Positions 14,543 to 17,532 of a stretch of DNA of 38,913 bases are shown here, piece by piece. Both the position numbers and the translations under genes were made by a program. The stretch is taken from NCBI GenBank assembly GCA_947475655.1, contig CANJOB010000008.1, positions 1-38,913 on the forward strand. Direction: 5' to 3'. This DNA is from Caulobacterales bacterium. GTDB taxonomy: Bacteria > Pseudomonadota > Alphaproteobacteria > Caulobacterales > Caulobacteraceae. The notes beneath the pieces are model-generated. The model saw only the letters and a program-made list of their open reading frames with translations. It made no database searches and was not told the DNA's origin. Position 1 is the first letter of the stretch. The number at the start of each line of letters is the position of its first letter.

Positions 14543-15496
14543 ATGCGCCTTGAAGGTACGACACTGGCGTTCGCCGCGGCGACGGGTCTCGCGGCCTGCA
14601 CGCTTCTGTTCGCGCCCGCGGCGCCTGTGGCCCAGCCGCCCCCGCGGCCCGCGGGTCCTCCCGGGTCGTGTGGAACGGCCATGCCGACTTTGCCACCGCC
14701 TCCCCGGACGCAGGCCGCGCCCATCGTCACCGATCTGGGTCAGGGCGTGACGGAGATGGTGGGCGATGGCGGCAACATGGTCCTGCTCAATGGCGCCGAC
14801 GGCCTGATCCTGATCGACGCCCAATACGCCACCAGCGCCGCGAACAACCTGGCGAAGATCGAGCAACTCACGGGCGCCAAGCCGAAATTCCTCGTCAACA
14901 CGCATTTCCATGCCGATCATACGGGCGGAAACGCGGTGTTCGCCCAGGCGGGCGCGACGATTTTTTCCAGCGAGAACGCGCGCAAAAGTCTCCTCAGCCA
15001 GGCGACGACCCCGAAGGTCGCATTGCCCGTCGTCACCTTCCAGGACGGCGTGACCTTTCACCTCAACGGCCAGACCATTCGCGTGTTCAAGGCGCCGTTG
15101 CCGGCGCACTCCGACGGCGATGTGATGATCTATTTCGTCGAGGCCGACGTGCTGCACATGGGCGACCTCTACGCCACGAGTTGCTATCCCGCCGTGGGCT
15201 TCTCGCAGTCGGGATTCATTGCGGCGCTCAAACGAGCGCTTGAGGTCGCCGGCCCCAACACCAAGATCGTCCCCGGCCATGGCGATGTCGCCGGCCGCAA
15301 GGATCTCGAGGCGACGCTGGCCATGCACGAAGGGGCGCGCGCGGCGGTGGAAAAGGCCGTGAAGAGCGGCGCCACGCTGCAGCAGGCGATCACGGCGAAG
15401 CCGCTGGCGCAGTGGACGCCGATGTTCGCGCCGCCAGGCAGCTTTGTCACCGATGATGCCTATGTCACCAAGATCTACACCGAGTTGAAACAGTAG
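14543..15496 (+). CDS. Exported MBL-fold metallo-hydrolase, paralog 1
   Basis: Signal-like N-terminus MRLEGTTLAFAAATGLAACTLLFAPAAPVAQ, Pro-rich linker, NTHFHADHTGG (HxHxDH), PAHSDGD, VLHMGD and VPGHGD motifs. Confidence 0.9.
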   Translation: MRLEGTTLAFAAATGLAACTLLFAPAAPVAQPPPRPAGPPGSCGTAMPTLPPPPRTQAAPIVTDLGQGVTEMVGDGGNMVLLNGADGLILIDAQYATSAANNLAKIEQLTGAKPKFLVNTHFHADHTGGNAVFAQAGATIFSSENARKSLLSQATTPKVALPVVTFQDGVTFHLNGQTIRVFKAPLPAHSDGDVMIYFVEADVLHMGDLYATSCYPAVGFSQSGFIAALKRALEVAGPNTKIVPGHGDVAGRKDLEATLAMHEGARAAVEKAVKSGATLQQAITAKPLAQWTPMFAPPGSFVTDDAYVTKIYTELKQ

Positions 15497-15531
15497 TGCG
15501 AACGCCGCGTCGCGCGGTTAAGGGGGATTTC

Positions 15532-16466
15532 ATGCGCCTGAATTTTCGACGCTGGCGTTCGTCGCGGCGACGGGCATCGCCGCCGGCACGCTGCTGTTCG
15601 CGCCCGCGGCCCCTGTTGCCCAGGATTATTCGGCGCCCGTGAGCCGCGTGACCGACGTGGGACCGGGCATGAAGTTGCTGGGCGGCACCCCGGGCGGCAA
15701 CATCACCCTGCTCAACGGACCTGACGGCCTGTTCGTGGTCGACGCCCAGTTCGAGGTCAACGCCATAGCCAACCTCGCGAAGATTGAGGAGATCGCCAAG
15801 GCCAAGCCGAAATACCTCGTCAACACGCACGCGCATTTCGACCATGCCGGCGGCAACGAACAATTCGCCAAGGCTGGCGCGACCATCTTCGCCAGCGAGA
15901 ATTCGCGCAAACACCTCACCGAACAGGTGGCTTCGGTCGACCGCGCAGGGCTGGCGAGACCGGCCCCGCGGAAGGGCGCCTGGCCCGTCGTCAGCTTCAA
16001 GGACGGCATCGACTTCCACCTCAACGGTCAGACCATTCGCGTCTTCCAATCGCCGCAGCCGGCGCACACCGACGGCGACACGGTGATCTATTTCGTCGAG
16101 GCCGACGTCCTGGACATGGGCGATGTCTACACCAAGGGCCGCTACCCCGGCGTGGACGTCGGTTCGAACGGCACGCAGGCGGGATTCATAGCCGCGTTCA
16201 AGCGCGTGCTCGAGGTCACCGGCCCCAACACCAAGATCATCCCCGGCCATGGCGACCTCGCCAACCGCAAGGATCTCGAGGTGACGCTGGCCATGCACCA
16301 GGGCGCGCGCGCGGCGGTGGAAAAGCTCGTGAAGAGCGGCGCCACGCTGCAGCAGACGATCGCGGCAAAACCGCTGGCGCAGTGGACGCCGCAGTGGGCG
16401 CCCTCAGGCAGCTTTACCAGCGACGACGCCTTTGTCAGGGTGATCTACAACGAGCTGAAGCGATAA
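15532..16466 (+). CDS. MBL-fold metallo-hydrolase, paralog 2 (catalytic domain intact from 15639; signal-peptide region apparently frameshifted)
   Basis: NTHAHFDHAGG, PAHTDGD, VLDMGD and IPGHGD motifs. ATG at 15532 aligns with the paralog 1 start but is one base out of frame with the catalytic ORF; the intact ORF in the track starts at a GTG at 15639. Confidence 0.8.
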
Positions 16467-16575
16467 GGCGGGCGATACCCAGCGATACATCTCGTCTAGC
16501 CGAGCCGGAATTTGCTTGAAAAGCCCGGCGGCCGGCCGCGTCATCGGCCGGCGAAATCATGCTCGGGAGGATTAA

Positions 16576-17532
16576 ATGCGTCTTCGATCTTCGCTATTGC
16601 CGCTCGTTGCGGCGGCGGTCTTTTCGGCTCTCGCGCTGCTTGTGCCGGTCGATCCGGATTCGCCCATGGCCCAGGCCGCCAACACTCAGGCGTTCGGCCG
16701 CGTGATCGACCTGGGACAGGACGTCAAGATGCTGATGGGCCAGGGCGGCAACATGGCCATGCTGGGCGGGCCCGACGGCTTGTTCGTTGTCGATGATCAG
16801 TTCACCACCAACGCCGAAGCCAACCTGGCCAAGATCGAGGAGATCGCCAAGGCCAAGCCGAAATTCCTCGTCAACACGCACTGGCATTTCGACCACATGG
16901 GCGGCAACGCCGTGTTCGCCAAGGCCGGCGCGACCATCTTCGCCAGCGACAATTCGCGCAAGCGCATGAGCGGCCAGATCACCTCGCTCGAACTCACAGG
17001 GCAGCCGAGACGGACCTGGGCGAAGGAATTCTGGCCCGTCGTCACCTTCAAGGACGGCATCGATTTCCACCTGAACGGCCAGACCATTCGCGTGATCAAG
17101 GCGCCGGCGCCGACGCACACCGACGGCGATGTGATGATCTATTTCGTCGAGGCCGACGTCCTGCACATGGGCGACACCTACACCAAGGACGGCTATCCCC
17201 TGGTGGACACGCCCTCCAACGGCACACAGGCGGGACACATCGCGACGTTCAAGCGCGTGCTCGAGCTCACCGGCCCCAACACCAAGTACATCCCCGGCCA
17301 TGGCGAACTGGCCAACCGTGACGATGTGGTGGCGACGCTGGCCATGCACGAAGGCGCGCGCGCGGCGGTCGAAAAGGCTGTGAAGAGCGGCGCCACCTTG
17401 CAGCAGACGATCGCGGCGAGACCGCTGGCGCAGTGGACGCCGCGCTTCGGCCGCCCAGGCAACTTCGCCAGCGAGGATGCCTTCGTCACGGTGATCTACA
17501 ACGAGCTGAAGAAGAGCCAGCCGCAAGCTTGA
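16576..17532 (+). CDS. Exported MBL-fold metallo-hydrolase, paralog 3
   Basis: Signal peptide MRLRSSLLPLVAAAVFSALALLVPVDPDSPMAQA; NTHWHFDHMGG, PTHTDGD, VLHMGD and IPGHGE motifs. Confidence 0.92.
   Translation: MRLRSSLLPLVAAAVFSALALLVPVDPDSPMAQAANTQAFGRVIDLGQDVKMLMGQGGNMAMLGGPDGLFVVDDQFTTNAEANLAKIEEIAKAKPKFLVNTHWHFDHMGGNAVFAKAGATIFASDNSRKRMSGQITSLELTGQPRRTWAKEFWPVVTFKDGIDFHLNGQTIRVIKAPAPTHTDGDVMIYFVEADVLHMGDTYTKDGYPLVDTPSNGTQAGHIATFKRVLELTGPNTKYIPGHGELANRDDVVATLAMHEGARAAVEKAVKSGATLQQTIAARPLAQWTPRFGRPGNFASEDAFVTVIYNELKKSQPQA

Follow-up and report, generated by a model that had tools for sequence, protein, structure and literature searches.

A missing base in the signal peptide of the middle copy of a tandem MBL-fold hydrolase triplet looks like an accidental loss

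The stretch of DNA analysed here, 38,913 nt in all and referred to as the window, is contig C8 of a fragmented, MAG-like Caulobacterales assembly (239 contigs, 83% complete). It carries three tandem MBL-fold genes, at positions 14543–15496, 15532/15639–16466, and 16576–17532, which are called copies 1, 2, and 3 below; copy 2 is 67% and 71% identical to its two tandem paralogs. The features of the triplet are as follows.

14543–15496, forward strand: copy 1, an intact MBL-fold gene with a signal peptide and a lipobox-like LAAC, Cys19 (Pfam PF00753, E 2.2e-16)
15520–15527, forward strand: Shine-Dalgarno sequence AAGGGGGA of copy 2, 4 nt 5' of the ATG (−9.7 kcal/mol)
15532–15642, forward strand: ATG frame of copy 2, an Arg-rich, 36-residue dead-end peptide with its stop, TGA, at 15640–15642
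15538–15547, forward strand: region with one base missing relative to copy 1 (CTT to CT, or T5 to T4)
15548–15638, forward strand: remains of the copy 2 signal peptide, coding in the catalytic frame (...STLAFVAATGIAAGTLLFAPAAPVAQDYSAPV) by codon statistics and hydropathy
15639–15642, forward strand: GTGA, in which the GTG start (15639–15641) overlaps the TGA stop (15640–15642) at −4 spacing
15639–16466, forward strand: copy 2 catalytic ORF of 275 amino acids, with HAHFDH (64–69), H143, D162, and H204 intact
16576–17532, forward strand: copy 3, an intact MBL-fold gene with a signal peptide

Read from the ATG at 15532, whose Shine-Dalgarno sequence ranks among the strongest of the window's starts, copy 2 gives only the peptide MRLNFRRWRSSRRRASPPARCCSRPRPLLPRIIRRP. 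The catalytic frame is open from the TAA at 15519–15521 onward, and upstream of the GTG at 15639 it contains no ATG, GTG, or TTG; the only NTG or ATH codons there are CTG 15552, ATC 15576, CTG 15591, and CTG 15594. CTG 15552 was considered as a start and rejected, having no Shine-Dalgarno sequence (−0.9) and an n-region without positive charge. The original prediction, that a 1-nt deletion frameshifts the signal peptide of the middle copy and leaves its catalytic ORF with only the GTG, was borne out by reading the frames, in both sequence and coordinates. If one base of codon 3 is set aside, copies 1 and 2 align across the signal peptide with no more gaps, and 84% of bases are identical over the first 34 alignment columns. 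The missing base lies within codons 3–6. Its identity is ambiguous: the proposed change of CTT to CT gives the fewest mismatches to copy 1, but it does not fix the base, as loss of a T from a T5 run at about 15544–15547 is equivalent and affects the frame identically.

Downstream of the break, the signal peptide is still legible. A phased Markov model was trained on the genome's other contigs. Under it, positions 15548–15638 have log-likelihoods of −106.0 (catalytic frame), −127.5 (ATG frame), and −120.9 (third frame), so that the catalytic frame leads by 21.5 and 14.9 nats, respectively; the match to a signal peptide is thus not due to chance. The Viterbi path places the beginning of the copy 2 coding frame at about 15546, and hydropathy peaks at 1.9 when the catalytic frame is translated, compared with about 0 for the ATG frame. 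Comparing copies 1 and 2, dN/dS (Nei-Gojobori) is about 0.39 in the signal-peptide region, albeit over few sites, and about 0.59 in the mature region. Together with the retained coding signal, these values indicate that the break is recent relative to the divergence of the copies.

Two further features of this region are recorded here. The lipobox codon of copy 1 (14597–14599) lies in LAAC, as in most close relatives, and that of copy 2 (15585–15587) lies, in the catalytic frame, in IAAG; judged from the sequence, copy 2 may have lost its lipid anchor earlier and separately from the frame break. Positions 15532–15760 are also a mosaic, ~86% of bases at the 5' end of copy 2 being like copy 1 and the start of its mature region being nearer to copy 3 (about 81%, against 67%), a pattern that suggests recombination or gene conversion near 15640.

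Copy 2 scores 58.0 bits with PF00753, for which the curated cut-off is 22.7, and is thereby assigned to the MBL-fold metallo-hydrolases; the enzyme is probably zinc-dependent and normally exported. The HxHxDH, His, Asp, His metal site is conserved, H64, H66, D68, H69, H143, and D162 being invariant in both alignments and H204 invariant in one and nearly so in the other. Identity as a beta-lactamase was rejected, at least by profile, because scores against the metallo-beta-lactamase NCBIfam equivalogs were far below each family cut-off (B1, best 56 bits against 200; B3, 42 against 240; B2, 33 against 240). The GTG at 15639 coincides in the alignment with the start of the conserved mature domain, and the ORF from it is predicted to form a complete MBL fold (pLDDT 84, pTM 0.86), for which the best PDB matches are 8d2z, SPM-1, and a chlorothalonil dehalogenase.

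An ortholog of copy 2 was found neither among 75 genomes of the genus nor among 390 of the family; a scan of genome contigs gave nothing beyond relatives of 23–36% identity, and plasmid records gave only relatives below 60%. Within the order, relatives at 61–66% identity occur in one genus of another family, most of them paired in tandem. Each of the 48 related genes that were examined (33–66% identity) has an in-frame start followed by a hydrophobic N-terminus; the signal peptide was called by a simple rule in 47 and on reading in the other (L135), and the close relatives are mostly lipoprotein-like (LAAC and similar). The observation named beforehand as contrary to a frameshift, relatives without a signal peptide and starting at the GTG, was made in none of the 48. 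In the tree, copies 1–3 cluster with 100/100 support, which indicates triplication in this lineage, and adjoin the genus of the other family; the branch of copy 2 is not longer than those of its sisters. As the duplication occurred in this lineage and copies 1 and 3 are intact, the loss in copy 2 is derived and recent. A derived loss of one base from an ancestral signal peptide is therefore well supported by the 48 relatives with signal peptides, the intact frame-specific coding signal, and the two intact sister copies.

For the triplet as a whole (14543–17532), close relatives are lacking within its own family, and its place in the tree is beside a genus from a different family of the same order; on sequence grounds, this suggests horizontal acquisition followed by triplication. 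Two genes flanking the triplet served to look in congeners for an empty site or a shared neighborhood: no relative of the neighboring MFS gene was found in the genus at E 1e-60, and the transporter gene downstream gave matches of 49–59%.

As a proxy for assembly error, the same genome was scanned for frame transitions with a coding-frame HMM, counting same-strand breaks without a nearby stop. Eight candidates were found in 838 kb. Three of the eight were confirmed by the match of their two halves to neighboring segments of a single profile: a GTP cyclohydrolase II (PRK07198 6–175, then 181–419; L147 near 18270 of contig C1), an exopolysaccharide transport protein (TIGR01005 3–319, then 325–743), and a sugar transferase (TIGR03025 192–303, then 313–444). 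Not all eight are certain, as one (L180) may be a gene boundary. About 0.4 breaks are expected per 39 kb window, or about one per 100 kb, and one break within the present window is thus unremarkable. The scan is blind to the break in copy 2, which is too near the gene start, and it misses other events of this kind for the same reason. In congeners, the same scan found six candidates in 400 kb of G003 and none in 383 kb of G026. The candidates in G003, a single-contig genome, are at L188, L189, L193, L196, and L206, with one beside a G7 run, and are possibly long-read indel errors. Two of the confirmed breaks in the present genome lie about 10 kb apart on contig C4, in exopolysaccharide genes (Wzc/EpsF-like, L150 near 13604, and the sugar transferase, L170 near 3512), and could mean either that this strain has lost its exopolysaccharide or that the assembly is locally faulty. 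In the GeneTack survey, 54 frame transitions per Mb were predicted in Proteobacteria, about one-third of them false (PMC3711429).

The original prediction offered three causes for the break: sequencing or assembly error, a recent mutation, and ribosomal slippage; the first two survive, and the last has no support. We give about an even chance to a consensus or assembly error, which makes it the likeliest cause. Copy 2 would then be the gene for an exported MBL-fold hydrolase with an N-terminal signal peptide, like its sisters and all examined relatives, and the normal exported protein would be made in the cell. We infer an error rather than a real mutation from the nature of the assembly, with its many contigs, incompleteness, and eight candidate breaks, and from the resemblance of copy 2 to a working gene in every other respect: the Shine-Dalgarno sequence, ATG, signal-peptide frame, and metal-site residues are kept, the predicted fold is complete, and the branch is no longer than those of its sisters. 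Homology-confirmed singleton frameshifts are, in the expectation of Antonov et al. (PMC3711429), sequencing errors and not true indels. Against this, the site is TT or T4 and not one of the long homopolymers where errors concentrate, the contig sizes point to a short-read assembly, a kind with few indel errors, and the unbroken 383 kb of G026 indicate that breaks are not inevitable; moreover, with two intact sister copies, a real loss would be tolerated.

To a real, recent, and accidental deletion of one base we accord somewhat less than an even chance. The exported product of copy 2 would be lost, leaving the useless 36-residue peptide and, at most, a signal-less enzyme from leaky reinitiation at GTG 15639, which would be tolerable given copies 1 and 3. 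That the break affects only one of three tandem paralogs of a single recent clade is in keeping with such an event. The signal-peptide frame and the whole ORF are, however, without decay, so that the event, if real, was very recent. The original prediction gave both coordinates of the GTG start and the TGA correctly but overlooked that the two overlap as GTGA. Among coupled genes of prokaryotes, NTGA is the overlap met most often, and the −4 spacing is efficient in coupling (PMC12548453), so a real deletion could still give some signal-less enzyme. The cytoplasmic enzyme originally proposed would be made only if ribosomes use this GTG, and the sequence 5' of it, an AGGA about 13 nt away, is near background (−4.1 kcal/mol, the random median being −3.1), so that output would probably be low. 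Coupling commonly, though not invariably, depends on an intragenic Shine-Dalgarno sequence ahead of the second start. Removal of an internal Shine-Dalgarno sequence has been found to reduce reinitiation to varying degrees (PMC6728339).

There is only a slim chance that the base is really missing and that the GTGA overlap makes an exported enzyme cytoplasmic in a single step, and it is very unlikely that a deletion was retained for relocalisation, coupling at GTGA yielding a functional cytoplasmic hydrolase under selection. The exact coincidence of the GTG with the beginning of the conserved mature domain, the complete predicted fold of the ORF from it, and the overlap itself would all suit such a form. 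The overlap was nevertheless rejected as proof of design because such overlaps arise automatically when one base is lost: codons of the shifted frame are made up of positions 2, 3, and 1 of the original ones, and each TGA among them consequently falls on an in-frame NTG. Among simulated one-base losses near gene starts of the same genome, 40% ended on ATGA, GTGA, or TTGA and 52% on CTGA, with the stop after a median of 24 codons; many ATGs were used per gene, and these counts are not independent. The near-background Shine-Dalgarno sequence and the predicted export of all 48 relatives also speak against relocalisation, and nothing points to selection for an enzyme in the cytosol.

Highly improbable is −1 slippage of tRNA-Phe on the TTTT, by which the frame would be restored and the exported protein still made. 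The ATG frame reads CTG AAT TTT CGA at the site, and the proposal is correct in that a −1 shift on TTT continues by reading as TCG ACG CTG in the catalytic frame. This arrangement permits single-site slippage only: there is no tandem slippery heptamer (X_XXY_YYZ) in the starting frame at the site, the RNA beyond it is no more stably folded than shuffled sequences (z = 0.32, calculated without pseudoknots), and none of the 48 relatives has a frame transition there. Programmed −1 ribosomal frameshifting was rejected on the site reading, the z value, and the in-frame relatives. A further reading takes GTG 15639, where the catalytic frame has its first standard start codon, as the original start of a copy 2 that was always cytoplasmic, and the likeness to a signal peptide upstream as incidental. 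This reading is hardly credible, as coding signal in the catalytic frame reaches upstream to about 15546, copy 1 aligns throughout, all relatives have signal peptides, and the strong Shine-Dalgarno sequence lies at ATG 15532 and not at the GTG.

Overall, copy 2 appears to have lost its base by accident, whether in assembly or by a recent mutation, rather than through any new mechanism. At roughly one frame break in every 100 kb of this assembly, the lack of a signal peptide in one of its genes calls for caution and should be taken as biological only if the reads bear it out. If the deletion is real, copy 2 would be a clean natural test case for the relocalisation of an enzyme by a signal-peptide indel through stop-start coupling. 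A search of the literature turned up no frameshifted MBL signal peptide. On the improbable reading of one-step relocalisation, signal-peptide indels in GC-rich genomes could more generally move one of a set of tandem duplicates to a new compartment in a single event, because one-base losses put TGA on an in-frame NTG.

Among the known systems nearest to copy 2 are the uncharacterised MBL-fold metallo-hydrolases of the other genus of the order (L117–L125), which at 61–66% identity have the same metal-site motifs and occur mostly as tandem pairs. They keep the signal peptide or lipobox, whereas copy 2 is broken and, in its catalytic frame, has Gly in place of the lipobox Cys of copy 1 and most close relatives. 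Copy 2 shares its predicted fold (Foldseek E 1e-14 to 1e-15, TMq 0.60–0.80) and the HxHxDH motif with subclass B1/B3 metallo-beta-lactamases, chlorothalonil dehalogenase (6uxu), and 8d2z, but it is only 18–22% identical to them and has an invariant Asp, D162, in a conserved GD motif. Termination-reinitiation systems at NTGA overlaps (PMC6728339, PMC12548453) likewise have an upstream TGA and a downstream GTG at −4 spacing; in copy 2, the overlap is a by-product of a one-base loss within one gene, the Shine-Dalgarno sequence is weak, and use of the GTG is only putative. Finally, the singleton frame transitions of GeneTack (PMC3711429) resemble copy 2 in that one gene has one break, homologs are intact elsewhere, and there is no recoding motif, but the break in copy 2 is at the extreme 5' end, within the signal peptide, and leaves the whole mature domain open from the GTG.
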